In this document: positions 3,149 through 58,800 of the stretch, piece after piece | How the letters are laid out: the number at the start of each line of letters is the position of its first letter | Numbering within the stretch: the stretch's first letter is position 1 | The notes under the pieces: generated by a model | Database searches by the model: none | What the model was told of the DNA's origin: nothing | Seen by the model: the letters and a program-made list of their open reading frames with translations, nothing else | Translations under genes and position numbers: made by a program | From: Mytilus galloprovincialis | Lineage: Eukaryota > Mollusca > Bivalvia > Mytilida > Mytilidae | Direction: 5' to 3' | Length of the DNA stretch: 64,000 bases | NCBI RefSeq assembly: GCF_965363235.1 | Contig: NC_134849.1 | Location: 57,183,122 to 57,247,121, forward strand

Positions 3149-5739
3149 ATATTGCCTTTCATATTAAATCAAGATATACATCCAAACCTTGAAAATACTG
3201 AAAATATCAGAATTTTTTGTGTTGCTAACATAAGAATTTTCCGTCAAAATGTCTGTCAATTTTGTTATGATAGCAACATTTTTTTAAGGCTAAGTGTACG
3301 TAATATAACTACTCAATGGATTTTTTTTAAATTTTACATGTGGATTCTGCTTGTAAAAATACATCAGAATATAAAATAAAACAAGAGGCTCTCAAGAGCC
3401 TGAATCGCTCACCTGGTAAACAATGCCTTCGGCCATGTTTTTTGACGAAATAGAAAATAAAACACAAACTTTATTTTATACACCCTACTGATCATTCAAA
3501 TGAAGTTTGGTTGAATTTGGTTGAGTAGTTTTAGAGGAGAAGATTTTTTAAAGTTAGCAAATATGATGAACAAATTGTGAAAAATTGTCATTAAAGGACA
3601 ATAACCCCTTAAGGGGTCAATTGACAATTTTGGTCATATTAACTTATTTGTAGATCTTACTTTGATGATCATTTTTGCTGTTTACAGTTTATCTTTATCT
3701 ATAATGATATTCAAGATAATGACCAACAAGAGGCTCTCAAGAGCCTGAATCGCTCACCTTAAATTTTTTGGTTAAATCTCTCATCAATGATTATTTTGGC
3801 TTTTCAATTTATTTAAATGTTCTTTGAATCGTCCTATTTTCTTCAAAAGCAAAAAAAAAATCATTTTCTCCTATGTTCTATTTTAGCCATAGGAGCTATG
3901 TTTCTGACATACAAGGAAATGAAATATAAAATTTATACTAGATACTCTGAAACTCATTTAGCCTAAGTTTGGCTGAAATTGATACAGCAGTTTCAAAGAA
4001 GATTTTTTTTAAGTAAGTCAACATGATGAACAAATTGTGAAAAAAGTCTTTAAAGGGCAATAACTCCTTAAGGGGTCAATTGACAATTTTGGTCAAATTG
4101 ACTTATTTGTAGATCTTACTTTGCTTAACATTTTTGCTATTAACAGTTTATCTGTATCTATAATAATATTCAAGATAATAACCAAAAACTGCAAAATTTC
4201 TTTAAAATCATCAATTCAAGGGCATTATACCTGAAAAACCAGTTACCCAATTCGGCTGAAAATTTCAGGACAGGTAGACCTTGACCTAATAAATACTTTA
4301 ACTTCTTGTCTTATTTGCTCTAAATGCTGGAGTTTTTGAGATATAAGCCAAAAACTGCATTTTACCCTTTTTCTATTTTTAGCCATGACGGCCATGTTTT
4401 TTGACGAAATAAAAAATAAAGCACAAACTTTATTTTATACACCCTACTGATCATTCAGTTGAAGTTTGGTTGAATTTGGTTTAGTAGTTTTAGAGGAGAA
4501 GATTTTTTAAAGTTAGCAAATATGATGAACAAATTGTGAAAAATTGTCATTAAAGGACAATAACCCCTTAAGGGGTCAATTGACAATTTTGGTCTTATTA
4601 ACTTATTTGTAGATCTTACTTTGCTGATCATTTTTGCTGTTTACAGTTTATCTTTATCTATAATAATATTCAAGATAATGACCAAAAACTGCAAAATTTC
4701 CTTAAAATTACCAATTAAGTGGCAGCAACCCAACAATGGTTTGTTCGATTCATCTGAAAATTTCAGGGCTGATAGATCTTGACCTAATGAACATTTTTAC
4801 CCTGTCAGATTTGCTCTAAATGCTTTCGTTTTTGAGATATAAGCCAAAAACTGCATTTGACCCCTATGTTCTATTTTAAGTAACAGCGGCCATGTTTTTT
4901 GACGGATCAAAAATCAAAGCACACACTTTGTGCAGGATAATCTAAGGAACAATCATGGTAAGTTTCATCCAAATCCATTCAGTAGTTTCAGAGGAGAAGA
5001 TTTTTTAAAGTTAGCAAATGTGATGTACAAATTGTGAAAAATTGTCATTAAAGGACAATAACCCCTTAAGGGGTCCATTGACAATTTTGGTCATATTAAC
5101 TTATTTGTAGATCTTACTTTGCTGATCATTTTTGCTGTTTACAGTTTATCTTTATCTATAATAATATTCAAGATAATGACCAACCAGTTGCTTCTGCGAA
5201 GCGCAGCATTATACGACCGCAGAGGTTGAACCCTGAACGGTTGGGGCAAGTATGGACACAACATTCAAGCTGGATTCAGCTCTAAATTTGGATTGTGATT
5301 AAATAGTTGACACAGCATAGGTTTCTGACACAGAATGAATGTGGTCTAATGAACTTAAACAACAAATTTTGCCTTTGAGCAATTCACTATGCTGTTGAAT
5401 ATTAATCCTCTCAAAAAAATGTTTGAAGAAATTTTCTTTTTATTTATGAAATCTGAAATGAAAAAAATTGACCCCCCAATTTTTTTTCACATCCCCCTTT
5501 CCCTTATTTCAAAACTGATCTCAATTCAAATTTCTAATGAAGTTTGCAACAATAACTACTCATTTAAATACATCATAAAATATTAAAATGTAAAAAAAGT
5601 GCTTGTTATTACTGAATGGTAAAGATTGTTTTAATCTATCAGTTGGTAGTAAAAGTGAATATACATTGTATATTGTATAAAACAATGATTTAAGTTGATT
5701 CAACTACTATTCTGGACAAAGAAAGATAACTCCAATTGA

Positions 5740-10242: not shown

Positions 10243-11631
10243 CAAGAATGTGTCCACAGTACACGGATGCCCCACTCACACTATCATTTTCTATGTTTAA
10301 AGGACTGTGAAATTGGAATAAATTCTCTAATTTGGCATTAAAATTAGAATGATCTTATCAAAGGGAACATGTATACTAAGTTTCAAGTTGATTGGACTTC
10401 TACTTTATCAAAAACTACCTTGACCAAAAACTTTAACCTGAAATTTGCACTATCAATTTCCATGTTCAGTGAACCGTAAAATTGGGGTCAAAACTCTAAT
10501 TTGGCATTTAAATTAGAAAGATCATATCATAGGGCACATGTATACTAAGTTTCAAGTTGATTGGACTTCAACTTCATCAAAAACTACCTTGACCAAAAAC
10601 TTTAACCTGAAGCCAAAAACTTTAACCTGAAATTTGCACTATCATTTTCTATGTTCAGTGAACCGTAAAATTGGGGTCAAAACTCTAATTTGGCATTTAA
10701 ATTAGAAAGATCATATCATAGGGCACATGTATACTAAGTTTCAAGTTGATTGGACTTCAACTTCATCAAAAACTACCTTGACCAAAAACTTTAACCTGAA
10801 GCCAAAAACTTTAACCAGAAATTTGCACTATCATTTTCTATGTTCAGTGAACCGTAAAATTGGGGTCAAAACTCTAATTTGGCATTTAAATTAGAAAGAT
10901 CATATCATAGGGCACATGTATACTAAGTTTCAAGTTGATTGGACTTCAACTTCATCAAAAACTACCTCGACCAAAAACTTTAACCTGAAATTTGCACTAT
11001 CATTTTCTATGTTCAGTGAACCGTAAAATTGGGGTCAAAACTCTAATTTGGCATTTAAATTAGAAAGATCATATCATAGGGCACATGTATACTAAGTTTC
11101 AAGTTGATTGAACTTCAACTTCATCAAAAACTACCTTGACCAAAAACTTTAACCTGAAGCCAAAAACTTTAACCTGAAATTTGCACTATCATTTTCTATG
11201 TTCAGTGAACCGTAAAATTGGGGTCAAAACTCTAATTTGGCATTTAAATTAGAAAGATCATATCATAGGGCACATGTATACTAAGTTTCAAGTTGATTGG
11301 ACTTCAACTTCATCAAAAACTACCTTGACCAAAAACTTTAACCTGAAGCCAAAAACTTTAACCTGAAATTTGCACTATCATTTTCTATCAGTGAACCGTA
11401 AAATTGGGGTCAAAACTCTAATTTGGCATTAAAATTAGAAAGATCATATCATAGGGAACATGTGTACCAAGTTTGAAGTCGATTGGACTTCAACTTCATC
11501 AAAAACTACCTCGACCAAAAACTTTAACCTGAAGCGGGACAGACGGACGAACGGACGAACGAACGGACGGACGAACGGACGCACAGACCAGAAAACATAA
11601 TGCCCCTCTACTATCGTAGGTGGGGCATAAA
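10243..11631 (+). mobile_element. Family B element with six core repeats, nested in family A
   Basis: The same ends as the 7550 copy enclose a tandem core. Units start near 10437, 10626, 10815, 10984, 11173 and 11362. Spacing is 169 or 189 bases because a 20-base stretch (CTGAAGCCAAAAACTTTAAC) is present in some units only. The GACGGACGAACG microsatellite lies at 11530-11585. Confidence 0.85.
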
Positions 11632-28384: not shown

Positions 28385-28774
28385 AGTTCTAAAATGTTAT
28401 CATGTCATCGTCGTCTGAAGACCTTTGGTATTCGCACAATAACTTTAGATCAGTAAATAGAAATCTATGAAATTTAAACACAATTAGGTTTATGACCACA
28501 AAAATTAAACTGAACTTAAAGGTTTAGATTGATCGTGGGGGTTATGGTCCAAACAGTGTAGGAATTAGAGACAAAAAGCATTTTTCTTGTATTAAAATTG
28601 CGCATTAGATTTGTAATATCTTTGACTACATTTATTTTGTGTCAGAAACCTATATTATGTCAAAAATTAGATCACAATCCAAATACGCGAGAGTCTCAAG
28701 CTTGAATATTGTGTCCAAATTTGCCCCAACTATTCAGGGTTCGACCACTGTGGTTGTATCAGGTTATGCTCAGC
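28385..28774 (-). mobile_element. Family C repeat, diverged copy (target of the 6.6-kb transposon)
   Basis: In reverse orientation it holds the family C blocks: the GGTTCGACC/GGTTGAACC start with CCCAACTATTCAGGG, the TGTGTCAGAAACCTAT region, and the CATCGTCGTCTGAAGACC end. Its terminal GAA at 28775-28777 is the duplicated target of the 28778-35379 element. Confidence 0.7.
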
Positions 28775-28777
28775 GAA

Positions 28778-28908
28778 TAGTCCAGGGAATCTGAGGTGAA
28801 AAATGGCTCAACCTCAAAGTAATTGCAACAGAAATAATTTATATCAATTTTGTTTCAATGGATACCTGTTAGTGACATATTAAAAATCGGCGTTTCACAG
28901 ACCACGGG
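28778..28908 (+). repeat. Left terminal inverted repeat of the 6.6-kb transposon
   Basis: It starts TAGTCCAGGGAATCTGAGG and ends AATCGGCG...GACCACGG. It pairs with 35261-35379. Confidence 0.9.
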
Positions 28909-28948
28909 AAATTGGTGTTTTGGGGGTAAAATGGGGATTTTTATGTAA

Positions 28949-29300
28949 AAATCGCTAAAAACTGGAAAAAATGATTTTTTTTTTTAATTTTTACTCAAAG
29001 TCCCTATTTTTTTCAGAAAACGTTTCAATCATATGTATCATCGTGATCAAATATTAAAAATGCATAGTCTTCAGGTTTTTTTTCCAAAAAACGCTGATTT
29101 TGAATAGAAAATCGCTGAAAACTGGAAAAAATGAAATTTTTTTAAAATTTTTACTCGAAGTCCCTATTTTTTTCGGAAACTTTGCAATTATATGTATTAT
29201 CGTGATGAAATCTTAAAAATGCATAGCCGTAAGTTTTTTTTGGAGAAAAAACGCTGATTTTAAATAGAAAATTGCTGAAAACTGGAAAATTTATAAACCT
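28949..29300 (+). repeat. Subterminal tandem repeat, about 160-base unit
   Basis: The phrase ATCGCTGAAAACTGG recurs near 28951, 29111 and 29271, with TCCCTATTTTTTTC and TTAAAAATGCATAG between. It lies just inside the left terminal repeat and has no counterpart at the right end. Confidence 0.8.
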
Positions 29301-29575
29301 AAAAATTAAAAAAAAAAGTCATCTCGAATATTAACTAGAAGAATTTTAATCCCTCAAAGAAAGAATAGACTTCAACAGAAACATCGTATTCATTATTTTG
29401 ACACATTAATGTAGTTTGAATAAAAAAAAAAAAGTTACAGAAGAGGGAGACCAAATACAATATTTCTGAATTCACATTGTCATAAAAATAAATCTTATAA
29501 AAACAAAATTTCGTTCAAAGTTTTTGCTTAAATGTTATAGAGTCACATCACCAACCAATCATGTATATGTAAGAA

Positions 29576-32500
29576 TTAAATGTCACTATCGTCCTCGTCT
29601 TCATGAATCTCAAGTACTTTACAGTTTGAACAGTTCAGTCCCTTACATTCGCTACATGCTGAGCTACAGTCAAGACCGTTTTTTCTACAAGTGCATCTGC
29701 GTGTATCGCAACCAGATTTGCATTTACATCTAATCACGTGCAATAAATTATCTGGAGCTGGAGGCAAAATTGTTCTAATTGGACAAAGTGATGTACCTTG
29801 TAGAACCCATCCCCAGTCTGATGGACTTAACATATGGACAGAGTCATTTGTCCATTCTTGGATCTGATAATATGCACGCTTGCAGTGCTGAGACGCTGCT
29901 TCTGAGGTAGGTGGCAAGGACTGAACATGTACACAAGACAAAGAATTGGTAAGAACTTTATGGTTAAATTTTCTGTAGCGTAACTGGTCTAAGCTTTCTC
30001 CTGTCTCACCTCCGTATAATATAACAAGAGCTGACTGTCCTGATTGTATAACATCATCTGACGTTGCATCTTGTTTTAAAAATACTGAAGCTAACTCTCT
30101 AAAAAAGGCATTCTCACGCAACCGCTTTAGTCCTTCCTTCTTCCCTATACCGTAAAGTCTAGATGTCGTGTCACACCCTGTGATAGCATGAATAAATGGT
30201 AACAAATCGACTATTTCATTTCCAAGCAACTCTTTAGTCTTTTTAATGTCCCATACTTTAGACTTTCGAATTTTATCGGATTGAAAAACCAATGGTTTAG
30301 AATTTTCCTCTGCATGGAAAAGCAGTAGTATGAGAACATCAGTGTCTTCACCAACGACAACGGTAGGGTAACAAGATGCATATCGTACAGCAGTTGATGC
30401 AATAAGAACATCAGCATCAGCAGCAGCTTGAAGAGAAATAAATCCTTCATTATCCATTTTATTACAAAGCATATTGATAAAGTTTTGCTTGTTTTCTCCA
30501 TTAGCTAAGAAAATTTCCTTCTTTGATTTAAACGGTGTGCTATCTTTGAATGAGATGTGTGTACCAGTCACACCTTTCGATCTCCGTTCATGTACATGAT
30601 CTTTTGTCGTTGGTCCGGAACCATACCCATCAAAGACAATTATTGGAATGGGATATCTGTTATTAATATGGTCGATGTATAACTGACATATTTCTGCAAA
30701 TGTCGCACCTTTTTTCCATGGGATTCGCTGTATCAAGGAACCACCGTCGATTACGTGGCGAACATCGGTACCAAGGTCATCTGAAAATACACAACTTCCC
30801 GTGTTCCATATTTCATCTGCCAATGTTGATTTCTGTGCCTGTCGCATCAACCCAGACGGTTCAAACAAAGCAGCTGGTACAGCGCTTAGTTCGTACTTAA
30901 AGACTTGAGATACATCTGGAAACATGGTATTAGCAGTAGTAACTAGTCGTTGAAACAACAATTGTGGATCGACAGATATTTCTTCATTATCTACTTTGAT
31001 ATTTAATTTTGAAGATAGAGTTGTTACTTGGTTTTTTCTTTTGAATACAAACTCGTCAATACATTTACCTTCCATTGACGATATTATATTGTGTCCTATG
31101 ACCAGTGCATTGTCAGAATTTACGTTGCTGTCGCCAGTTGCTCCTGTTTCGATGTTCCTCAGATTTTTATCGATAGAAAATGGACTTCTTTCTCCAAGAA
31201 AGTCAAGAAAGGTTGTTGTGTCTTTGGTATCCCGTACCTTCCTTGGAATGCACATTTCTTTGTGCTGTTCGCTCGTTTCAAAATTTACACCAGTTACTTG
31301 TTGCATGGCCTCATTCATCTGAATACACTGTGGCATAGACAAAATCCACAATGATCTCTGCGCATCTGTCATCCCTCGACCTCTGGTGAGACCTCCAGTT
31401 GTTTTAATGCATCTCATCAGAACTTGCTCTATGATCAGATCCGATGATAAACCTGACCAAAACCGATCACTTCTTCTCATCACATGGAAGCCTGACATGA
31501 GAGCTTCGTTTATTGCAGGATTTGTTCTTGATAACCCATGCATTTGCTGCAGGTAAACATACGCAGATTTTAGATATAAGTTATGTCCTGCAGCAGCAAA
31601 GTATGGTAACATCTTTTGAATGGTTTGAAGATGAAGGGTCCAGTTTCCAGTTCTTTCAGCTTTGATGAAATTACGCAGCAAGTCCACCATATCCATATAT
31701 AGAAACCATAGTCGAGCTGTCCGGTTTTCGATATGTGATTTTCTAAAAGTTGATATACTGTCGCGTATTTTTCTCAATACCTCATTCTGATCAAGGGTGT
31801 CTACTGGAAGATGTCGTTCGAGGATTTCATCAAAAATATAACTCAATTTATTTAAATCCTGGATAAAAGTGTTTTCATTGTGAATTTCAGAGTCTTCAAG
31901 AGAAGAAAGATGTTCTACATTTTCAGTGTCATGATCTTTCAAGACAGTGGAAGATACATGAAAATGTTCGCACAACAATAATGAAGTTAAAGCATTGTAA
32001 ATCAAGAAATGACCACGCACTGCTCTCGCAACTGCCTTTCCGGTAAACATATGCGTAACAGCGTTAGGTGCATAGACAGTTTCCATGAGCTCTGCAAGTC
32101 CAGATCCGCTCATAATATTACCAATGGAACCAAGAAAGCTCATTTCGAGATGAAAACCTCCTAATCTAAGAACTATCGATTTCAAGTCGCTGTCCTTTGG
32201 TTCGTTGTCAATAATTGTAAGAGCTTTCCAATAAAGCGGTTGGTCAAATGTAAGCATGGGATTAGCTCTGTACTTAAACGCTTCGTTACATACGAACTTC
32301 ATGGTCGAAAAGATACATGAAAGGTTTCCCGGCTCAAGGTCTATCATAGGCAAAAATACAATTGTCGATTTACCAGGGTATGCTCCATCTTGCACTAAAT
32401 TACACATTGCTGACCACCCAATCCTTTTCTTTGGCCAAAGAGTACTACAGAGAAGACTGATGTTATCAGGTAACGCACCCGACTGTTGCGCTGCAAGTGA

Positions 32501-33328
32501 TTCGAATTTTAAACTAAGTTTTGATGTTCGGTCAAAGTTGTATTGATGGAGATCGATTTTCCCTATTTGTTTTATATCGTCAAGCGAAACATTTAATCTC
32601 TGCACAATAGTTTTGTGGTTATATCCTGGTGTGATGCCTGCTATTATCCCCATTCCATGGAATGTCCCATGACCGTCAAGTGTTCTGATGTTATGGTCCA
32701 CATTATCTGCCACGTGTTGAATACATCTCCCTTCAAGGTCTTGCGGAGAATCATCACCTTGAAGAGCAGAATTCACGCCGTGTTTTTGAACTTCCTTATA
32801 AGATGATGAAAAGCCAAGTTGGTATAAGGTATCGAGAAGGAATTTTGAACCAAAATGGTGATGCATTTGAACTCCTAGACCTAGCTGTAAAGGGGCAATC
32901 AGAGATCTTGGTCTTGTGGCTTGCATGATAGACTGGCCAATGGCTGCCACTTTAAGATCGCAATCTTTTTCAGAAAATATTCCACCAAGTAGCTGTTTAA
33001 GACTGTCAGGTAAGTATGCGATGTTTTCCTCACAAGATGCTATTGTAGCTGGTGATGGATACACCGCCCTTGAAAATTCCATTGATTTTATATCAGATTT
33101 GATCAGTTTAGCTGCTGTTTTGATAATATCTCTTTTTTCTGTTTCAGGATCGGAAGTTTTTTTACTCTGATGAAATTCTTGCAGAAGAACAGATGCCGTT
33201 TTACGAAGAGTGACCACATTTGGTTTTCCACAGACGTCGGTAATAAAAGCTTCATCACCAAAGTGTGTTTTGATCTTTGATTTCATGTGTACTGTTGTGT
33301 ATGCCAGATCTCCACAAAACTGTGTCAT
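29576..33328 (-). CDS. Large transposon protein: PIN/FEN-like nuclease plus CXC cysteine cluster
   Basis: An uninterrupted frame of 1250 residues, far longer than anything else in the window. Residues about 1-700 have no domain I can name. From about 890 to 1060 come acidic motifs in the order of PIN/FEN/XPG nucleases: VFDGYGSGPTTKD (about 895), DADVLIAS (about 969), GEDTDVLILL (about 992) and ITGCDTTSRLYG (about 1048). The last 55 residues hold a ten-cysteine cluster, CKCKSGC...CTCRKNGLDC...C..C....C..C (about 1197-1233), like the CXC motif of tesmin/TSO1 proteins. It would bind zinc and probably DNA. The frame stays open upstream of this ATG, as VKDLVHQM, toward the preceding ORF, so the true start is probably there. 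It is likely the transposase or main nuclease of the surrounding TIR element. I am sure of the frame and the inverted repeats, fairly sure of nuclease-like motifs, and unsure of catalysis. Confidence 0.85.
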   Translation of the reverse strand: MTQFCGDLAYTTVHMKSKIKTHFGDEAFITDVCGKPNVVTLRKTASVLLQEFHQSKKTSDPETEKRDIIKTAAKLIKSDIKSMEFSRAVYPSPATIASCEENIAYLPDSLKQLLGGIFSEKDCDLKVAAIGQSIMQATRPRSLIAPLQLGLGVQMHHHFGSKFLLDTLYQLGFSSSYKEVQKHGVNSALQGDDSPQDLEGRCIQHVADNVDHNIRTLDGHGTFHGMGIIAGITPGYNHKTIVQRLNVSLDDIKQIGKIDLHQYNFDRTSKLSLKFESLAAQQSGALPDNISLLCSTLWPKKRIGWSAMCNLVQDGAYPGKSTIVFLPMIDLEPGNLSCIFSTMKFVCNEAFKYRANPMLTFDQPLYWKALTIIDNEPKDSDLKSIVLRLGGFHLEMSFLGSIGNIMSGSGLAELMETVYAPNAVTHMFTGKAVARAVRGHFLIYNALTSLLLCEHFHVSSTVLKDHDTENVEHLSSLEDSEIHNENTFIQDLNKLSYIFDEILERHLPVDTLDQNEVLRKIRDSISTFRKSHIENRTARLWFLYMDMVDLLRNFIKAERTGNWTLHLQTIQKMLPYFAAAGHNLYLKSAYVYLQQMHGLSRTNPAINEALMSGFHVMRRSDRFWSGLSSDLIIEQVLMRCIKTTGGLTRGRGMTDAQRSLWILSMPQCIQMNEAMQQVTGVNFETSEQHKEMCIPRKVRDTKDTTTFLDFLGERSPFSIDKNLRNIETGATGDSNVNSDNALVIGHNIISSMEGKCIDEFVFKRKNQVTTLSSKLNIKVDNEEISVDPQLLFQRLVTTANTMFPDVSQVFKYELSAVPAALFEPSGLMRQAQKSTLADEIWNTGSCVFSDDLGTDVRHVIDGGSLIQRIPWKKGATFAEICQLYIDHINNRYPIPIIVFDGYGSGPTTKDHVHERRSKGVTGTHISFKDSTPFKSKKEIFLANGENKQNFINMLCNKMDNEGFISLQAAADADVLIASTAVRYASCYPTVVVGEDTDVLILLLFHAEENSKPLVFQSDKIRKSKVWDIKKTKELLGNEIVDLLPFIHAITGCDTTSRLYGIGKKEGLKRLRENAFFRELASVFLKQDATSDDVIQSGQSALVILYGGETGESLDQLRYRKFNHKVLTNSLSCVHVQSLPPTSEAASQHCKRAYYQIQEWTNDSVHMLSPSDWGWVLQGTSLCPIRTILPPAPDNLLHVIRCKCKSGCDTRRCTCRKNGLDCSSACSECKGLNCSNCKVLEIHEDEDDSDI

Positions 33329-33345
33329 TTGATGAACGAGGTCTT

Positions 33346-33981
33346 TTACTGAGTCAATTGGTCTTCTTCATTTTCTAGCAAGTAATCCATGGTTTTTAGA
33401 AAAGCTGTATTTGCTTCAGTGTGATCTGGTCTACCTTGCTTTTTTCGTTTTTGCTCTGGTGTTCCACCAATTGGTATATTTTTCCCTGTCCTGAAGTTGA
33501 CGCTACATTTCTGATGGTAAATAGCATCTGCTGCAGGTAAGTCTTGTGCATATTCAAGTTTTGCCAAAACGTCAGCAGCCCATGAATCTTTTCTGTCTTT
33601 GCATATTGCATCAATTTTCTGTTGGAATTCAAAAGTTCTCACTGGATATACTTCTATTCCATATTTTCTATCTGACATTTGCGCTGACTGTCCACAAAAC
33701 AAACAGTGTTCTCTAAAATCAAAATACTGTGATGATCGCGTTAGTCGATCAAATCTATCGTTATCAGTATTCTCTTTACCAATTTTCTGAATCTCTTTAG
33801 TATTAGTATATTTTTTTCGACATTCTTGGTGTAGTATTTGGCCGGCTACAACAAATACGTTTTGATGTCTATGTTTGCTGCTTACTTCATTGATTGTTTT
33901 TGCACCTTTTTCTCTTATCGTTATCAGAACTTGCCCATTCTCCAAAGGTTCGTTGCATATCACACAGTTACTTCCAGACAT
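33346..33981 (-). CDS. N-terminal transposon ORF with two CxxC...HxxC modules
   Basis: 211 residues from the ATG at 33981. I chose this start because TTTCAG, a splice acceptor, directly precedes it; a longer frame to 34014 would begin inside the intron. Two modules of the same form are visible: C6-x2-C9...H51-x2-C54 (ILHQECRKKY) and C93-x2-C96...H156-x2-C159 (IYHQKCSVNF). Each could bind one zinc ion. A basic stretch KRKKQGRPD follows near residue 180. The frame stops 18 bases before the next ORF's first ATG, and that ORF is open through this junction in another frame. The pair therefore looks like one protein separated by a frame change, or two products. It is transcribed with the large ORF. 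Confidence 0.75.
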   Translation of the reverse strand: MSGSNCVICNEPLENGQVLITIREKGAKTINEVSSKHRHQNVFVVAGQILHQECRKKYTNTKEIQKIGKENTDNDRFDRLTRSSQYFDFREHCLFCGQSAQMSDRKYGIEVYPVRTFEFQQKIDAICKDRKDSWAADVLAKLEYAQDLPAADAIYHQKCSVNFRTGKNIPIGGTPEQKRKKQGRPDHTEANTAFLKTMDYLLENEEDQLTQ

Positions 33982-34322
33982 CTGAAATGAATGAAGAATA
34001 TAATTTAGTTTCAAAGCAAAGAAAAGAATTATTTGTTTAGTTCACGCTCTACACATTGTTAATAAAACTTTACAAATAATAATTATTGTAGCATTAAAAT
34101 AATGTCATGTTTAATCACTGTAGTTCGTAACTGGATGCAAATCGAATTCGCTAGTTTTAATACTCAATTCTGCAGTTTTTCAAAATTTGTTTGACGGTTA
34201 TATTATGTTCTAATTGCTTAACAGTGAACATGATCGCGTGGGCAAACATACGGATGGTCATGTAAAAAAGAATAAGCTTCATCATTCAACTTCAAAGAAA
34301 TATATATTTGCATGAAACTTAC

Positions 34323-34414
34323 TATCACTCAATTTTGCTGCTCTAGTAGTGGTATAAACGGATAAATAACCATTGCTTTCTTTTTTCGGACTTCTCTTCG
34401 ATCACCATTTCATC
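34323..34414 (-). other. Probable non-coding leader exon of the transposon transcript
   Basis: On the minus strand TTTCTGTTTCAG precedes 34414 and GTAAGT follows 34323, giving a 92-base exon. It has stops in the frames that would join the downstream ATG, so it looks like 5' leader. It is inferred from splice signals only. Confidence 0.5.
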
Positions 34415-35090
34415 CTGAAACAGAAAGTTTTGATTTTTCAATCACAACCATATAAAAATTTAATTTGATTAAAAGTAAAATTACATTATTAGCCCATGAA
34501 TAGGTTAATTAAAAACAATAAAGGTATTTCATATTTTATTTGCAAAGTAAACAGTAAAAAACAATGTTATCCACACTGTTAAAATTTTTAAAAAATGGTC
34601 AATTTAAACATAAGTTATATATGATCCATAAACCGTACTCCTGGCGGCCAACCAAGGATAATAGAACGCCTAACACCACAGTGCGTACAGCTGGTCATTA
34701 TAAGATACTTAAAAACAACAACAAAGATTACTACAAAAGCATTTATAGGAATGAAAATACAAATACTTGTTTTTACTCGTTCATTCTTTGTGTCACAAAC
34801 GGCGTTCCATACTTTTTTTATTTTTGACGTAACCTCCCTATAAAATGTCGTTTTTTCAGTGAAAAGCGTTGGTAAACAGTTGTTATACATTTAAAACAAT
34901 TTCCAAGACTAGGAAACATGATTTATTGTAATAAATCAATGTAAAAAATGATGGAATTGAAAATGACAAGTGAAGGGGGAATACGGCAAAATAATGCAAC
35001 TGGGGGGAAACAAATACTTTTTTAAAGATTCAAAACATGATAAATGTATTTATTTTTATACATTTATTATAATAGTCAAGCGTTACTCAC

Positions 35091-35160
35091 CAGTTTTAAG
35101 TTCCACTGGGTCAAATCCAAGTCAAAAACAAATGCCGCTTGTTGACATATTGTAGTTGCA
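35091..35160 (-). other. Probable first leader exon of the transposon transcript
   Basis: On the minus strand ACTTAAAACTG is followed at 35090 by the strong donor GTGAGTAAC. The start is not defined, and the interval shown is a guess. It lies about 100 bases inside the right terminal repeat, a sensible place for a promoter. Confidence 0.35.
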
Positions 35161-35260
35161 GTGTACAAGTTATTTCCCTTTTGACGTATGGCGCGCATTA
35201 CGTTGCATGAAATTCAGTAGAATTTTACCTTTTTAATTCTCATAAATTATACAACTTTGC

Positions 35261-35379
35261 CGTGGTCCGATTTTTGCCGATTTTTGATATGTTAATAATA
35301 TAGTTGTAATCTTCGTTTTTCATGAAAAAATAATTCTGTTGCAATTTGTTTGAGGTTAAACCCCAGATTCTCTGGACTA
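35261..35379 (-). repeat. Right terminal inverted repeat of the 6.6-kb transposon
   Basis: It ends GATTCTCTGGACTA, complementary to the left start TAGTCCAGGGAATC, and is followed by the target copy GAA. Confidence 0.9.
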
Positions 35380-35559
35380 GAAGCATTTTATCAATATATA
35401 GTTACCATGCATAGTTAAAAATTGTATTTTTAATTATTACCCAAGGTTTCTTCTTCAAACAAAATTCTTATTTTCATTTGCAAATAGTGTAAAGTAAAGA
35501 TCAAAGATTAAGACTTTTGAATGAAGATCACTGTGACTGTCATGTCTTTTGCAGTCTTA

Positions 35560-35760
35560 TAAAAAAGAAGATGTGGTATGATTGCCAATGAGACAACTGT
35601 CCACAAGAGACCAAAATGACACAGACATTAACAACTATAGGTCACTTTACGGCCTTCAACAATGAGCAAAGCCCGTACCGCATAGTCAGCTATAAAAGGC
35701 CCCGATAAGACAATGTAAAACAGTTCAAACGAGAAAACTAACGGCCTTATTTATATAAAA
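35560..35760 (+). repeat. Abundant mussel-type repeat (GAGACAACTGTCC)
   Basis: It carries GATGTGGTATGATTGCC, GAGACAACTGTCCACAAGAG, AACTATAGGTCA and TCAACAATGAGCAAAGCCC, a phrase set I recall as one of the commonest in Mytilus DNA. It is non-coding; related pieces lie at 12670 and 57462. Confidence 0.65.
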
Positions 35761-44400: not shown

Positions 44401-47400
44401 GGTTTTGCGGTTTTAAAACCAGAAAACGGTATATTTCATGTAACTCTATGTCACTTGGGAGTATATTGTTTTACTTTTTTATTTAAACAGAAGCAATGTA
44501 TTAAAACACTAAGTTGCAATTCAATATTTCAGATGCAGGGGGTCAAACTGGTCTCTCAAAAGCAACTTACCATTGTTAAAATTCCAACATATGACATCAT
44601 GTAGCCATTTTGTTCAGGTAATAATTTAAATGTTTCCATAGCAACAACTGAAAACATACTTTGGAAAACACCAATTGGAATGCCTGCAAAAAAATAACTC
44701 TTTAAAAAAGTGTCATTGAACAATTAAAACTTATTACCAGTAAAATGTAAATACCACATAGATGTTCATTTTGCTTCATAAGAAGAGGTTTGAACAGAAG
44801 TTATTAGCAAAAAAACAATTTTACTAATCCTGCTACATATTCATGTGCCAATCCAATGTCAGGAACCTTGTCAATGTTATTCTTTTATGATAACTTTTCC
44901 TGTTTTTATTGGTGTTGGAAAGCAATTAATGGCAGGTTCTCTATATATTGTCTTTAAAATTACAGGTTGTCTATAAATAATCTTTAATAAATTTTTCACA
45001 TTCTCTCTTCAATATGAACAATTTAGAGCTTGAAATATAGTGAAACAACTGTCTTTTGTTGAAGAGTCTCAGACCCTATGTTGACCTCTGGATGTCTTTA
45101 TATTTCATGAATTTTTCTGTGTCATTGAAGAATATTTTTTATATATCGTAAGGTACACAGACAAACCACATATAATTTCCTGTTGTGATGTTTTACACAT
45201 TTATATGATCACCTGTTTTGAAGAAAAAAATAGTAAAGCAGCAGTTACATAGTTAGCATCAGCTTCACTTCTATCTTATCTCTTTAAGGATGTACTTAGG
45301 TGAGGATAGGTAAAAATTAAGAAATTAAGAAATTAAAATTGATACTTTAAGCTGGTAGAGCATCAATTAAGAATAAAGATAAGCTAAACATATTGATAGG
45401 TCATGGACCTCTTTTTCAAGATATTTGAGATTTAAAATATGGCAGGAAAAGGCTGACTCGGACTTTTACCTTATATTTGCATTGGTTTTATTTGGGTCTC
45501 AAAACAAAAGAAAAAAATCAAAAATCTTCTAAAATTTTGGTAAATGACCTTTCATGAGCTTTTAAGTCTTATATGAAAAAATAAATGGGTGTTATGGGGC
45601 AAAATATTTTACATTGTATTGTATGGAAAAACACCAAGGAGTCCGAACATTTGAAACAAATTCCTAAACCTCACCTAAGTACATCCTTAATAACAATATT
45701 TTTCATTCTATTGATTCTGTTATCCATAAAAAAAAAACATTACCTGCAAGAGCTCTTACTGTAAGAAGAAACAGAGCACCAGGTGCTGTGGCTAACTGTA
45801 AGATCTTTTTTATACTCAATAAAGATTGTTCTTTCACTGCAAGTAAAAATGCATATAACAATGTTTATATCATCACTTCATGCTATACAAATTTCAGTTA
45901 TGCATTTTACTATAAAATATTTAATTTAATTGTTGAATTTTTTATTTGAATTTAAAGTGAAATTTGGAATGTTGAAACTTCCTCATGGTTAGTTGACCAT
46001 ACTGGTGTTGACTGTTCTGTTTTGGTACTTATGGATTTAATGATCTCAAACTTTTATTCTTGCAAGTAATTCAAGAAACATGTTTCTCCAGTGTAGGTTT
46101 TTCTCACTATGCTGAACACCCATTTGTAGCCTTTGGCAGTTTTCTGCTCTTTGGTTAGGTTGTTGTCCCTTTGACAAATTCTCAATTTTCATTTATAATT
46201 TAATTTGTGTATAAAAATAATCATATGTCTTTCCTGTTCATACCTTCTGATGTGACGACTATTCTCTTGGTCTTTTGTGGAATGAACTGCCATGTTAAAT
46301 ACACACTTAACAGAGAGCCAAGAAATGATGTATATGCAGCAGACTGTTCACTGTAAATACAGATATATAATATTTTAACATATAATAAGAGTCTGTGAAA
46401 TGTTTTATTATATATTAAAACCTGCTTAAGAGACCACCTGAATTAAGCAAAAACCTTTGTTCAAAGACCACCAATTTTAGATCCATCCCACTGAAGTAGA
46501 TTTCATATAAATTGAACCTGTATAAAAAGACCATAAGTGGTCTCTTAAAACGGGTTTGACTCTATATTAAATGAAAATGGGTGTTGTCCACAGTACAAGG
46601 ATGCCCCACTCGCACTATCATTTTCTATGTTTAGTGGACCGTGAAATTGGAATAAATTCTCTAATTTGGCATTAAAATTAGAATGATCTAATCAAAGGGA
46701 ACATGTATACTAAGTTTCAAGTTGATTGGACTTCTACTTTATCAAAAACTACCTTGACCAAAAACTTTAACCTGAAATTTGCACTATCATTTTCTATGTT
46801 CAGTGAACCATAAAATTGGGGTCAAAACTATAATTTGGCATTTAAATTAGAAAGATCATATCATAGGGCACATGTATACTAAGTTTCAAGTTGATTGGAC
46901 TTCAACTTTATCAAAAACTACCTTGACCAAAAACTTTAACCTGAAATTTGCACTATCATTTTCTATGTTCAGTGAACCATAAAATTGGGGTCAAAACTAT
47001 AATTTGGCATTTAAATTAGAAAGATCATATCATAGGGCACATGTATACTAAGTTTTAAGTTGATTGGACTTCAACTTCATCAAAAACTACCTTGACCAAA
47101 AACTTTAACCTGAAATTTGCACTATCATTTTCTTTGTTCAGTGAACCGTAAAATTGGGGTCAAAACTATAATTTGGCATTTAAATTAGAAAGATCATATC
47201 ATAGGGCACATGTATACTAAGTTTCAAGTTGATTGGACTTCAACTTCATCAAAAACTACCTTGACCAAAAACTTTAACCTGAAGCGGGACAGACGGACGA
47301 ACAAACGAACGAACAGACAGACAGACAGACAGACGGAAGTACGAACGGACGCACAGACCAGAAAACATAATGCCCCTCTACTATCGTAGGTGGGGCTTAA

Positions 47401-50400
47401 AAACATTTGTAACTGGACAAATTTTTTTTTTTTTTTTTATGGTCGGGTTGTTGTCTCTTTGACACATTCCCCATTTCCATTCTCAATTTTAAATGAATGT
47501 TTTAAAGGCTATAAAAATGACAACAGTTACTGTCTTCATTCTAATGGACATATCCGTGATGTTAGGCAGTCTAAATTTCACAGCAATATACAATATGTAA
47601 AAGCAGCAAGTGTACCAGAAGAGAGACAGTCTGCTGGCCTGTACAAAGTTTGGATAGTGGTACTATTTGATGGGTCAATACATTCATATACCTGAAAAAC
47701 TTTATGAAAAAACCTCCAATAAATGTTCCTATAACCATGCCAACACAGAGTTGGTTTCCTTTCTTTCTAATTACATGTACCTGAAAAACTTTATGACAAG
47801 ACCTCCAATAAATGGTCCTAAAACCATGCCAACTCCGTAAGATAATCCCAGCATTCCAAGTGCACCAGCTCTCTCTTTTTCACTGCTTGTGTCTGTCACA
47901 ATCATTTGTCCAGCTATAATCAAATATCAAATCTTATTGTTATTGTGAAACTTATTTTCTTTAACAATTTACAAAGCTATACATGAGACTACTTTTTATT
48001 ATATACAAAATGAAATAATTGTTTGTGGTTTTTTTCTTTTAAGGATTATTTTTTTTACCTGCTATGGCATTCAAGACAACATATACAATGTTTCCTTTTC
48101 TCTGATTCTTGATAATGGTTTTATGTTACTCTTTTTCATGCAGTTTAAGTGAGGTGAGTTGTCAATGTTCAGAAACAAATTGACTGTTTATAAGTTGCAA
48201 TGAATGAGGATATTTGAAATGTATATGCTACAGATTAGACATGTTCATTATACAAATTTTATTACTAGTACCTTGCATAGCATGCATAAAAACAGATGGT
48301 AATCTGGATATAAATAGCATCAGGAAAGTCCCTGACATCCCAAGCAAAAGATATGACAAACTTGCTGAAAAGAATGCCAACATCATGGCTGCTTGTCCGC
48401 CCATCTTGTCACCAAATTGTCCAAATAATGGTCCACCAGCAAGCTGTACAACTGCAAAAGTGGTCTGCAGGTAACCAAACATTACAGGGTCTACTCCAAG
48501 CTTCTTTGTTAAATACTGAATAAATAAAAGAATCTAAAATCAGTCTAATTAATTGCAAACGAGAGTCAACTAGTTGATGTCGCGGCACACATATTACATG
48601 TTACAAAACAAATGTCTGAGTCCTTAGTAAAACTTATATCATCTTGATTCAATATTTCAATGCATGTATACTTGGTACTGAATATAGATTTATTTTCTAA
48701 CTGATTGTTAACTGCTTAAGCAAATTGTTCTAAACATTGTTTCCATGGTTAAATATTAAACTTATTACATCTAACATTTATATATCAAGTATTCTTAAAT
48801 GAACACTTGAAAATTTCACGGAAAAAAAATTTGAAAACATGAAATTAAAGGGACATTGAGTGTAACCTAGTGCTGTAAATCATTAAGGGTCCCTTGAAAT
48901 TAACACGAAATACATGTAGTTGCCTATAACCATAATTCAATAATTGCTTAATAACACACACTTCATTTGAACAGTTGTCTCATTAGCAGTCATACCGACA
49001 TCTCCTTATTTTCTTATTAGTAAAGAATTATTTTTGTTCAGTCCTTGTAATTTTCAAAAGATGTGGGTCTTTTATAGGTTATGCTTTGTTTTTTTAATGA
49101 TAATGATTTTTTCATTTTTCCTTGTCAAAATCAATATTTCATGTATTTATAAAAATGTAAAATAAATGACGGCTTTTAATAAGTACAATTCACTATTTCC
49201 CTTTTGCTAAAAACTTTATTTTGATAAATATTCATATCGACTTTGTCCTCTTTCAGAGGTACAATGTAACACCTGACTTTTATGTTAACACTGGTGTTCT
49301 ATTGGTTAAGCTTCTAGCTATTAAAATGAAAAACATTGTCAACAAGTTTTTAGAAAACAAAGTAAAAACATACATGACATACCCAAATAACAAAAAAAAT
49401 GTAACAAATGTCCACTGACCAGAAATACATTGAAATATAGCTAAATATCATCAAGATAATACCAGATCTGATTCTGATATTCAGTAAGATTGTTTAAGGT
49501 TTTCCCGTATTTTTTTAAAAAGATGACTTTTAATGCATGTTGTTTGTTATTTCAACTTTACAAAAATTTACACAATTTATATCAATCAAAATTTTCTAAA
49601 ATTATGGAAATGAGAAATATCATGCATGTGTAGCGGGGTTGCTTCCCCTCCTTAGTACAGGTAGAACATACATTGTATAAAGCCAGTCTTAATCAACTGA
49701 GCTAGGGAATCAATTCTTTGGCTCAGTGGGTTAACACACTGACTGTCACGCAGGCAACTGGGGTTTCAATCCCGGTGGTGACTATATAAATCTGTAGAGT
49801 AGATTCATGCTCTCCGGTTACACATTTAAAGTAGAATCATAATCTTCAAATCTATGTCCTATATTTTGACATGCAGTATGTTCTTTTTAATACAACAGAA
49901 ACATTTGCTGTACAATAGGGCTCTTCACGGTTAGTTCGGCCATATTGGATAGGGGGCAGATTTTCATATTTGAGGTAAAAATGGTGTGAAAAATACGGGA
50001 AAACATCATTAAAACAGAGCTGTTGCTTGGAAACACACATAGGATTTCCCACACTTTCATACCATTTCCACCTCCTTCCAAAAAATCTGCCCCCTATCCA
50101 ATATGGCCGAACTAACCGTGAAGAGGGATCTCCTGTAGTTGGTGATCGCAATACTGGTATACCAGTATTGTCCACAATACTGGTATAAAAATTTTGTACC
50201 AGTATTGTATACCAGTATTGTACCAGTATTGTGCTTTTTTTTAAATAAACAATATAGGTAATTAATCTTTTATTAAAGCTGTCACATATATGCATAATGA
50301 AATTAACATATGACATGACCATTTTATTAGGAATGATTGAGTTTAACTGATGATGCCATAGATGTTTTACTGTGATTGTCATCAAATAAAGTTTTAAATC

Positions 50401-51697
50401 TTCAGATGTTTTTTTCTTAACCATTCTGTCTCAGCATTTTAACAAACTCTGTACTTTCTTCTATGTTTTCTTTCAGCTCTCTCTTTCCAAGATTCATGTA
50501 GTATATTTAAGTGAATTTTATATTGACATTAATGCTGTTATAGCTTCTGTATCATCAGCATTGGTATTGTCTATTTCTTCTTCAGATGTGATTTCTGCAA
50601 CCCCTCCCCCTTCCTATATTGGTATTTAGGTATTCAGTCTCTGTGGACTTTCTCTAATGCTTACTAGATTACAAGCTATTTCAGATAGCATTTGTACAGC
50701 TATCTTACTGTCAGAATGCTGGTCAAGTATTAGTATTTGTACCAGTAGATATACATGTATCTGCTACTAATTGTATTGTTCATGGTTCTGAATCAACTGC
50801 TTCAACCCGTAACATTCATGTAGACAAACTAGTTAATTTGATTATAACAAGGTTCCCCTAGCAACTTTTTATAATTAATGAATAATATTGATATCTTTTG
50901 TTGTCAAAGATTAATAAGAAAATAAAGACAAACAAATGCATATGATCTTAGGACACCAAAAATGTATACATGTATTAAAATATCTGTCAAAATATGTGAT
51001 GGCATACATGTAAATGCTGAATTTACAGTGTTAAAGTGTTAATAATTTGCTTGAATTTATTTAATTATTACTCAGATAATAACAAGCTTTTATTTTATTT
51101 TATCTTTATTGAATTAAATAAAATATAGAAATATGATAAAATTATTAGCAATTGTTTAAATAATAATGATGTTATGAGTTAATTTCAATAATCCTTTATT
51201 TGTGCAAGTATAGTAATGACTTTTAACTGGTTGTTAATTGATTTCACAATTATCCTCTATAATCATTTTGAGTTCATTTAATTTCCCTTTGATCTTCAAT
51301 ATAGTCTAGTCAACAATACAACTACAATACTGGTATATCAGTAATGTACCAGTATTGCTGTTTTTTTAATAAAAAGTTACAATACTGGTACAAAATTTTT
51401 ATACCAGTATTGTGGACAATACTGGTATACCAGTATTGCGATCACCAACTACAGGAGATCCTATTCTTGGCCATTCAACCTGTAAGAATATAAAAAAAAT
51501 ACCGGCAATGTGCCTGTCTGAATCCAGAAACATGTTGAATACAAAAAGATATTGATGTGAGTGACAAACACAGCTTTGTTGAACCTCCAACCAAACACTT
51601 TGACTTCGTCAGTCTTTTCTGGTGGCATCTCTTGTTTCATCTCAGGCGACTTATCGTCGTCTGATGCTTTGGGTTTCTCTGTCATTCGATTTTTCAT
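41257..51697 (-). CDS. Slc22a18: SLC22A18-like major facilitator transporter (nine coding exons)
   Basis: Nine exons on the minus strand, all with GT-AG borders and compatible phases, give 424 residues with a stop at 41257; as I recall the human protein is also 424. Exons: 51697-51503, 48515-48272, 47913-47781, 46350-46244, 45836-45744, 44683-44571, 43955-43854, 42786-42666, 41423-41257. Family landmarks are KKLGVDPVMFGYLQTTFAVV, the loop GGPLFGQFGDKMGG (MFS signature between helices 2 and 3), GQMIVTDTSSEKERAGALGM and, near the end, SPTVGGYLLQYFGFPVFGYL. The N-terminal 35 residues are charged, then hydrophobic helices follow. The product is a polytopic membrane protein, described in mammals as an organic-cation transporter-like MFS member whose substrate is poorly settled. 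A minus-strand AATAAA at 41019-41024 is a possible polyadenylation signal. Intron 1 (about 3 kb) is filled with transposons. Confidence 0.93.
41588..41730 (+). repeat. Abundant mussel-type repeat (GTTACACCACTGTCC)
   Basis: It carries GTTACACCACTGTCCAAGGT, a G-rich stretch and AAGCCTGTAATTCAGTGGTT. I recall this as a recurrent 3' retroelement segment in mussels. It lies in intron 8 of Slc22a18. Confidence 0.55.
42666..42786 (-). CDS. Slc22a18: Slc22a18 coding exon 8
   Basis: AFVKDIFQMCLVMTPLVVGL to SALDT plus one base, between TTTTTCAG and GTAATT. Confidence 0.9.
43071..43548. mobile_element. GTGGATTCATT-type MITE interrupted by a TTAA element
   Basis: Outer ends ACTGTGAATGCATT and CAATCCACAGTAA match the mirror-image ends of the MITE at 61938-62135. 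It is split by the element at 43087-43373. It lies in intron 7 of Slc22a18. Confidence 0.6.
43087..43373. mobile_element. TTAA-flanked MITE (GGTGGTACC ends)
   Basis: The left TTAAGGTGGTACCCAACACT is mirrored by the right AGTGTTAGGTACCACCTTAA. It is non-coding. A partial relative of the interior lies at about 41815-41920. Confidence 0.75.
43854..43955 (-). CDS. Slc22a18: Slc22a18 coding exon 7
   Basis: 34 codons, IVQGLGVKVLTKKFSENDIL onward, between ATACAG and GTAAGT. Confidence 0.9.
44571..44683 (-). CDS. Slc22a18: Slc22a18 coding exon 6
   Basis: Acceptor TTTGCAG; encodes GIPIGVFQSMFSVVAMETFK and EQNGYMMSYVGILTM; donor GTAAGT. Confidence 0.92.
45284..45690. mobile_element. TTAA-flanked MITE (GGATGTACTTAGG ends)
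   Basis: The left TTAAGGATGTACTTAGGTGA is mirrored by the right CACCTAAGTACATCCTTAA. 407 bases, non-coding, in intron 5 of Slc22a18. Confidence 0.85.
45744..45836 (-). CDS. Slc22a18: Slc22a18 coding exon 5
   Basis: Acceptor CTTGCAG; encodes VKEQSLLSIKKILQLATAPG and the next helix; donor GTAATG. Confidence 0.9.
46244..46350 (-). CDS. Slc22a18: Slc22a18 coding exon 4
   Basis: Acceptor TTTACAG; encodes SEQSAAYTSFLGSLLSVYLT and the start of the central loop; donor GTATGA. Confidence 0.9.
46414..46565. mobile_element. Short MITE (TTAAGAGACCACC ends)
   Basis: TTAAAACCTGCTTAAGAGAC on the left pairs with GTGGTCTCTTAAAACGGGTTT on the right as an imperfect inverted repeat. It lies in intron 3 of Slc22a18. 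Confidence 0.6.
46574..47400 (+). mobile_element. Family B element with three core repeats
   Basis: Core units of 169 bases start near 46771, 46940 and 47109. The GACAGACAGACAG-rich run lies at 47288-47350 and the end is CTATCGTAGGTGGGGC. The left end is worn. The minus-strand frame at 47224-47406 is the microsatellite translated. Confidence 0.8.
47432..47492 (+). repeat. Fragment of mussel-type retroelement tail
   Basis: GGTCGGGTTGTTGTCTCTTT followed by GACACATTCCCCATTTCC, following a poly-T run. Confidence 0.55.
47691..47743 (-). pseudogene. Partial duplicate of Slc22a18 exon 3
   Basis: About 53 bases repeat the last part of exon 3 (VGMVxGxFIGGxxIKFF) with a handful of differences and keep a donor GTATATG. 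No matching acceptor is evident. Reading on from exon 3 into it meets TAA three codons in, so it is probably a relic. Confidence 0.75.
47781..47913 (-). CDS. Slc22a18: Slc22a18 coding exon 3
   Basis: Acceptor TTATAG; encodes GQMIVTDTSSEKERAGALGM and the G-rich helix GVGMVLGPFIGG; donor GTACAT. Its 3' end is duplicated at 47691-47743. Confidence 0.92.
48272..48515 (-). CDS. Slc22a18: Slc22a18 coding exon 2
   Basis: It starts YLTKKLGVDP after ATTCAG and ends HAMQ plus one base before GTACTAG. It encodes helices 2-3 and the MFS signature loop. Confidence 0.92.
49712..49850 (+). repeat. tRNA-derived SINE-like sequence
   Basis: TGGCTCAGTGGGTTAACAC fits an RNA polymerase III A-box and GGGTTTCAATCCCGG about 35 bases on fits a B-box. 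No proper acceptor stem closes it, so I read it as a SINE head in intron 1 of Slc22a18. On the opposite strand just to the left (49690-49710), CTAGCTCAGTTGATTAAG also resembles an A-box. Confidence 0.5.
49921..50125. mobile_element. MITE, 205 bases (CTCTTCACGG ends)
   Basis: About 43-base, almost perfect inverted repeats start CTCTTCACGGTTAGTTCGGC and end in its complement. It directly abuts the TIR element at 50126. The 190-codon minus-strand frame that spans both elements is accidental. Confidence 0.88.
50126..51463. mobile_element. TIR element, 1.3 kb (GGATCTCCTGTAG ends)
   Basis: Ends GGATCTCCTGTAGTTGGTGA and its complement, followed inward on both sides by repeated AATACTGGTATACCAGTATT motifs, give arms of about 100 bases. 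No transposase. The right end lies about 40 bases from the donor of Slc22a18 exon 1. A one-ended relic is at 16042. Confidence 0.88.
51503..51697 (-). CDS. Slc22a18: Slc22a18 coding exon 1
   Basis: 65 codons from ATG, ending ...IQTGTLP before GTATTT. The charged tail SDDDKSPEMKQEMPPEK is followed by the first helix. Confidence 0.9.
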
Positions 51698-55800: not shown

Positions 55801-58800
55801 CCCTGTAAATTAATGGTTCTAGGCTTCATTTTGAAAGGGGAAAAATTGAAAGTAAAAAAAAATCTGGTAACATCTTTTTAGAGGCAAATTTTGGTTCTTG
55901 TGATTGTCACATTAGCAAATGTTGCTTTCAATATGAAAAACAAAGTTTAGTTATTCCATTTGTATCAAGCATTTACCTGAAGAAAAAATGTGTTAAAGAA
56001 CACGAAAAACCTCTCAAACTCGAGGATTGTGTTCAAAAATTTAATAATTTAAGCACATTCATTATTTATTTTTTATTAAAGATCAAATCGATCCAGCTGG
56101 GGTGGCAGTAGAGATAGAAGAGATCCGTACAGAGAATATGACACACATAGACGAGACAGGGCGTACAGTCCACCCCGAAGAGACATGAGTCCTCCACATG
56201 CTAAGAGAATGAGGAGAGATACATGGTTTGTACATTATGGGGATACTTTGATTAGTAGAACAATATACTATTTTTTATGATGACAGCGTTAGAAGCATCC
56301 TTTCTAGAGTTTATTTATAGTTTGCGAGTGAGTTAGTAAATTGAGTGTACACATTAATAAACTTTAGAAAATATGTCTCTATCATTACAATACTCTTAAT
56401 GGTTAGCCATGGGGTAAAATGTAGATTTTGGCTTATAACTCTGAAACCAAAGCATTTAGAGCAATTCAGACTTGGGGGGAGGGGGGTAAATTAGTAAAAT
56501 AGTCAAGATCTATCTGCCCTGAAATTTTCAGATGAATCCAACAACCGGTTGTTGGGTTGCTGCCCCTGAATTGGTAATTTTTAGGAAATTTTGCTGTTTT
56601 TGGTTATTATCTTGAATATTATTATAGATAGAGATAAACTGTAAACAGCAATAATGTTCAGCAAAGTAAGATCCACAAATAAGTCAACATGACCAATAAG
56701 GTCAGCTGACCCCTTAAGGAGTTATTGCCCTTTATAGTCAATTTTTAATAATTTTTGTAAATTTTAACAAAATATTTTCCTCTGTTACTAATGGGCCAAG
56801 TTCATTATAAATTGAGATAATTGTAAGAAGCAAGAATGTTCAGTAAAGTAAGATCTACAAACACATCACCATCACCAAAACACAATTTTGTCATGAATCC
56901 ATCTGCGTCCTTTGTTTAATATGCACATAGACCAAGGCGAGTGACACAGGCTCTTAAGAGCCTCTAGTAATATTACTTTCCGCAACAAATCCAAAGAGAT
57001 TTGTTTGGCGAGGCATCATAATCTGTATCACACATATTATTAAATATGCTAATTTTAATGTACAACTTAACAATAATTTTAAACGCATAACTGATAAATG
57101 GATTCATAGCTGTCATTAAAAAAAAACTGGGGAAAGAAAAAAAATCAGAAATAAAAAAACCACATAGAGACTAAATGCTGATTTCTTCAACCCCTCCCCC
57201 AAATGTAGGTTTTGTACACTTTGGAAAATTGATTGACAATTATCATGATTATGGATGACCTTTAGGTAATATTAATGATATAATATGCTTACACTACATA
57301 TTGATTTATCACTGCAGGGATGAAGGAAGTGCTTACCCTGGATACAGCTATAATGGTCCACCTAGTGGGGGAGCCAGTGGTAATGGACCACCTTTACCAG
57401 ACCCAGATGGACATCCGGGTCAAAATAGGTAAGAACGATACCATTTATCAGTATTTAATTATAAGAAGATGTGGTACGAGTGCCAATGAGACAACTTTTC
57501 ATCCAAGTCACTATTTGAAAAAGTAAACCATTTTAAGTATGGTCTTCAACACAGGGCTTTGGCTCACAATGAACAGGAAGCTAGTTTGGAAGAAGTGACA
57601 TATATCAGACCAAAATGGTTTTCAGGGACCAAAAAAAGGTTAATTTTATAATTTTGGTGCATTACTTGGTAAAAGGAGAAACACTGGGTTTGTGCGAAGA
57701 AAAATTAAAAATCCTTGCAGGGATTGACATATGCAACTTTAAGCTTGTTTGATGAATTAATTCACCTAAAAAACTTTTGTGTTGTGACACCAGGTGAAAT
57801 TTGGATATACCCGTATAGAGAGAAAAAAGATTTTTACTTAGTTTTTATAGAACTTGTATTTTTATGCCCCACCTACGATAGTAGAGGGGCATTATGTTTC
57901 TGGTCTGTGCATCCGTTCGTCCGTCTGTCCCGCTTCAGGTTAAAGTTTTTGGTCAAGGTAGTTTTTGATGAAGTTGAAGTCCAATCGACTTCAAACTTAG
58001 TACACATGTTCCCTATGATATGATCTTTCTAATTTTAATGCCAAATTAGAGTTTTTACCCCAATTTCACGGTCCACTGAACATGGAAAATGATAGTGCGA
58101 GTGGGGCATTCGTGTACTGAGGACACATTCTTGTTTATCCTATACAATATAAATGTTTCATTTTGAAGGACCAAATATTTTTAGCTCACCTGGCCCGAAG
58201 GGCCAAGTGAGCTTTTCCCATCACTTTGCGTCCGGCGTCCTGCGTCTGTCGTCGTCCTGCGTCCGTCGTCGTTAACTTTTACAAAAATCTTCTCCTCTGA
58301 AACTACTAGGCCAAATTAAACCAAACTTGGCCACAATCATCATTGGGGTATCTAGTTTAAAAAATGTGTCCGGTGACCCGGCCAACCAACCAAGATGGCC
58401 GCCATGGCTAAAAATAGAACATAGGGGTAAAATGCAGTTTTTGGGTTATAACTCAAAAACCAAAGCATTTAGAGCAAATCTGACATGGGGTAAAACTGTT
58501 TATCAGGTCAAGATCTATCTGCCCTGAAATTTTCAGATGAATTGGACAACCCGTTGTTGGGTTGCTGCCCCTGAATTGATAATTTTAAGGAAATTTTGCT
58601 GTTTTTGGTTATTATCTTGAATATTATTATAGATAGAGATAAACTGTAAACAGCAATAATGTTCATCGAAGTAAAATTTACAAATAAGTCAACTTGACCG
58701 AAATGGTCAGTTGACCCCTTTAGGAGTTATTGCCCTTTTTAGTCCATTTTTAACCATTTTTCGTAAATCTTAGTTATCTTTTACAAAAATCTTCTCCTCT

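Follow-up and report, generated by a model that had tools for sequence, protein, structure and literature searches.

The question raised by this 64,000-nucleotide stretch of the Mytilus galloprovincialis genome (contig NC_134849.1, positions 57,183,122 to 57,247,121; here called the window, with positions counted from its first letter) is what kind of mobile element occupies 28778-35379 and which enzyme moves it. The first-pass annotation, made from the letters alone, had described a transposon with terminal inverted repeats (TIRs) that codes for a FEN/XPG-like nuclease and has no recognizable DDE transposase. We found that the long protein of the element holds both a nuclease of this type and, in its predicted structure, a DDE domain. 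From the combination of DDE domain, nuclease, TIRs and 3-bp target duplication, the element very likely belongs to the AcademX branch of the Academ superfamily of cut-and-paste DNA transposons.

The boundaries of the transposon (28778-35379, 6,602 bp) come from the TIRs and the flanking GAA:

28775..28777, no strand: target-site duplication GAA, left copy, direct reading
28778..28914, plus strand: left TIR, imperfect over about 137 nt, sharing 18/20 of its outermost bases with the right end
28948..29289, no strand: subterminal tandem repeat, period 160, 2.1 copies, 86% matches
35252..35379, minus strand: right TIR, about 128 nt, imperfect
35380..35382, no strand: target-site duplication GAA, right copy, direct reading

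The TIRs begin TAGTCCAG and are imperfect over about 130 bp each; the left end (28778-28797, plus strand) reads TAGTCCAGGGAATCTGAGGT and the right end (35360-35379, minus strand) reads TAGTCCAGAGAATCTGGGGT. We found two matches to the end pattern in the 64-kb window, both at the TIR ends and guaranteed by construction since the pattern was derived from these ends, and none further at up to 3 mismatches (chance expectation 0.02); 0/100 shuffled controls gave two matches. In a control that does not use this pattern, the left 200 nt were compared by BLAST with all of the window and matched, apart from themselves, the right end alone (73% over 63 columns, E 1.6e-6). Weaker similarity continues block by block as far as about 137 nt on the left and 128 nt on the right, and global alignment of the two ends (140 against 140 nt) gave 97 identities in 155 columns. 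Hence, the TIR is imperfect. Among random 140-nt pairs, 7 of 1,988 reached the score of the TIR pair, and these presumably stem from other repeats, in which the window is rich. The chance of a 3-base flank match by itself is 1 in 64. The sharp edges and the GAA duplication described earlier thus both stand. The 160-period repeat lies directly inside the left TIR and is the sole tandem repeat found in 28600-35600.

What the element encodes is confined to two frames of at least 130 amino acids (aa), both on the minus strand (29576-33367 and 33346-34041):

33346..33981, minus strand: N-terminal part, 211 aa, two C2HC-type zinc modules, in a frame different from that of the long frame
29576..33367, minus strand: the 1,263-aa long frame, counted from stop to stop, with DDE transposase (predicted), FEN/XPG nuclease and CXC-like tail
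31397..32725, minus strand: residues 215-657, predicted DDE domain of RNase H-like fold containing a helical insertion; D221/D224, D375, E647
29819..30835, minus strand: FEN/XPG-type PIN nuclease, residues 845-1183; D874, D913, D984, D986, D1008, D1010, D1066
29618..29734, minus strand: residues 1212-1250, CXC-like zinc tail in which nine cysteines are conserved

The N-terminal reading frame runs from 33346 to 34041, with its first Met at 33981, and overlaps the long frame by 22 nt (33346-33367) in a different phase. We fetched 140 relatives, one of which is the window's own protein, leaving 139; 110 of these span 1,430-1,600 aa and join the zinc part, at the N-terminus, to the long part in one protein (conservation figures are from 110 relatives). 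Since the two parts are in different frames here and form one continuous protein in most relatives, this copy is probably broken at the junction (33346-33367), where an assembly error or a programmed shift may also account for the split. With its coding region divided between two frames, the copy is probably inactive as it stands.

The predicted model of the long frame shows a DDE domain of RNase H-like fold: strand 1 carries D221/D224, strand 4 ends with D375, and E647 lies on the final helix. Fold comparison of this model gives an arrangement of the P element/Hermes/Transib/RAG1 type. The triad is invariant among the relatives, the median spacing from D375 to E647 is 280.5 residues, and H406, in the local stretch GGFH (i.e. 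GxxH), is invariant in 110/110. A sequence search of the PDB with the single protein gave no match. The Pfam family DUF6589 (PF20231) falls on the part of the DDE core that follows its second D, at residues 387-610 of the window protein and likewise in P0070 and P0121. This placement within the core suggests that DUF6589 proteins are transposases or transposase-derived; none of the papers searched mentions DUF6589. Hence, the earlier statement that the protein lacks a recognizable DDE domain does not hold for residues ~215-657.

The predicted model of the second catalytic region and its fold matches place it in the FEN/XPG family, at 10-16% identity to FEN/XPG structures in the matches shown, and its seven acidic active-site residues, which we take to be equivalent to particular FEN1 residues, are complete in 107/110 relatives. 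The acids singled out by the first-pass annotation (895, 969, 992 and 1048) correspond, at an offset of 17-18, to D913, D986, D1010 and D1066 in the long frame. The FEN/XPG-like nuclease was read correctly. Could this nuclease itself be the transposase, with no DDE enzyme involved, as the suggestion of transposition by unusual FEN/XPG chemistry would have it? The fold and the seven acids are real and conserved, but the same protein holds a DDE domain with an invariant triad, and FEN/XPG enzymes hydrolyze DNA, whereas we know of no strand joining by them. We therefore consider it highly improbable that the nuclease is the transposase; given the predicted DDE domain, the element has no need of a FEN nuclease acting by itself, and movement in that way is unlikely. 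What the protein presents instead is a conserved fusion of a flap nuclease with a DDE transposase.

Both termini of the joined protein carry cysteine-rich modules. The N-terminal double zinc module was correctly recognized at the outset: module 1 is C6-C9-H51-C54 and module 2 is C93-C96-H156-C159, with each position kept in 92-100% of the relatives. The tail had been described as a ten-cysteine CXC tail, and of this nine cysteines are borne out (94-95%), whereas the tenth, C1249, is kept in only 3%.

We found 386 related proteins at E ≤ 0.001 by a first protein search and 825 by a profile search, with the best 120 listed for each. Hosts named among the matches listed are Mytilus edulis, M. coruscus, Mercenaria, Patella, Littorina and Porites corals, and the closest named relative among them is from M. 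edulis (53%). The window's own protein represents a cluster of 26 member sequences, which is compatible with a multi-copy element and falls short of proof. Many relatives lie on contigs of ~4.7-8 kb, presumably metagenomic and roughly the size of one element. Pattern searches for related loci gave 41 and 13 matches in viral contigs and 35 in prokaryote genome contigs, with 0 confirmed in either.

A tree of 11 proteins follows the species only partly. Littorina groups with Porites (99/99), M. coruscus groups with Patella (100/99), and the M. edulis proteins, two in number and mutually 46.5% identical, do not pair with each other; on the side of agreement with species, the window protein pairs with one from M. 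edulis, the two Mercenaria proteins pair and the three Porites proteins group. The expectation that related proteins occur in molluscs and corals is borne out, with several divergent lineages there. The tree also bears on the idea that this is a host CXC-domain gene (Tesmin/TSO1-like) lying between chance inverted repeats, for which the database names of some relatives speak. Against this are the partial conflict with species, the GAA at both edges, and the ends, each of which finds its only counterpart in the window in the other. The Pfam TCR profile stays below cut-off (E 2.2 and 0.68 in the tails of two of three relatives, and unlisted for the window tail). A host gene is the least credible of the explanations we considered, with a negligible probability.

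The transposon reading then leaves the question of which superfamily the element belongs to. Academ is counted among the DDD/E superfamilies in PMC9587614. In PMC10294476, Academ was found with DDE/D profiles from a 2011 survey of catalytic domains and is expanded in bivalves, with 100 curated consensus sequences of mean length 5,565 bp. In PMC10045372, target duplications are 9-10 bp in AcademH and 3-4 bp in AcademX, a difference seemingly tied to the encoded helicase and nuclease. The GAA duplication, known from one insertion, fits the 3- or 4-bp size. Hence, Academ, proposed earlier as the nearest named group, is probably right, on the strength of the DDE domain, nuclease, TIRs and 3-bp duplication, and the element fits a known group and not a new kind of mobile element.

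Several points weigh against this assignment. The Academ label comes from a comparison of described features, and the 3-bp size from a single insertion. Foldseek E-values for the DDE half were not significant against the PDB or viral proteins, the DDE assignment being based on structural comparison, topology and conservation. No empty site was found within the window: the left flank resembles an inverted repeat copy at 5211-5349 (79% over 140), but the right flank scores 25 against the continuation of this candidate paralogue, compared to a random-segment median of 29, with 2,215/2,945 random segments matching or exceeding it. As this is below the random median, the apparent continuity at 5211-5349 gives no support for an empty site, and the candidate was rejected. 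These weak points count more against the Academ label than against the domain assignments. A DDE plus FEN/XPG family outside Academ, which would form an unnamed superfamily of its own within the P element/hAT/RAG type, is an unlikely but not negligible alternative, against which all AcademX features compared (DDE domain, nuclease, 3-bp duplication, TIR and length) fit.

How an AcademX-type protein of this build would work can be sketched. Binding of the TIRs would fall to the zinc modules at the N-terminus and perhaps also to the CXC tail; the DDE domain would cut the ends and join them to the target with a 3-bp stagger, giving GAA; and the fused FEN/XPG nuclease would then act, at donor or target, on branched intermediates, whether flaps, hairpins or gaps. 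The closest published idea we found is the link that PMC10045372 draws between the duplication sizes of AcademH and AcademX and their encoded helicase and nuclease. A literature search for DNA transposons combining a CXC domain with a PIN-like nuclease gave a single paper, on plants. More speculatively, and less likely than not, the polypeptide may be a two-nuclease transposase, in which the DDE half, like P/hAT/RAG-type enzymes, makes hairpin or branched intermediates. Within the same complex, the FEN/XPG half would open or trim these and so set the 3-bp duplication. If so, the element would bring its own end-processing enzyme and would not borrow host repair. Since both active sites are nearly invariant, why a flap nuclease stays fused to a DDE transposase is a testable question. 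In addition, some mollusc and coral proteins named 'Tesmin/TSO1-like CXC' or 'uncharacterised' are most likely transposon proteins and should be masked before gene counts.

Elsewhere in the window, two arrays of one ~169/189-bp repeat unit lie ~35 kb apart (10279-11587 and 46575-47419), with more inverted copies near 57.9-58.1 kb, and 58246-61030 holds a tandem array in which a ~501-bp unit recurs five to six times, with inverted similarity to the repeats at 1-12 kb. The sole other open frame of at least 130 aa in the window (49852-50430, minus strand, 192 aa stop to stop) had no Pfam match at E ≤ 1, and no RNA family reached its gathering score in the window.

The AcademX nuclease is of the XPG type. 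Compared by description, the element is like AcademX in its DDD/E transposase, element-encoded nuclease, 3-bp duplication, TIRs, several-kb length and molluscan hosts of relatives, and we found no difference among these features. AcademH belongs to the same superfamily, and a DDE domain is expected in it, but it has a helicase and 9-10-bp duplications in PMC10045372, whereas the duplication here is 3 bp. No helicase match was found with Pfam in either frame at E ≤ 1. The P element, hAT (Hermes) and Transib/RAG1 share the RNase H-like core with a large insertion before the last acid; unlike them, the element here has a fused FEN/XPG nuclease and a 3-bp duplication. Duplications are 8 bp for P and hAT and 5 bp for Transib, so the 8 bp of the P element superfamily is not what is seen here. 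The hAT and P superfamilies, along with MuDR, Kolobok and Dada, have a C/DxxH motif between the second D and the last E in PMC9587614; here the H is invariant and the stretch reads GxxH. Finally, FEN1, Exo1 and XPG share the fold and acid pattern of the nuclease, which here, unlike in those enzymes, is part of a transposon protein that also has DDE and zinc domains.
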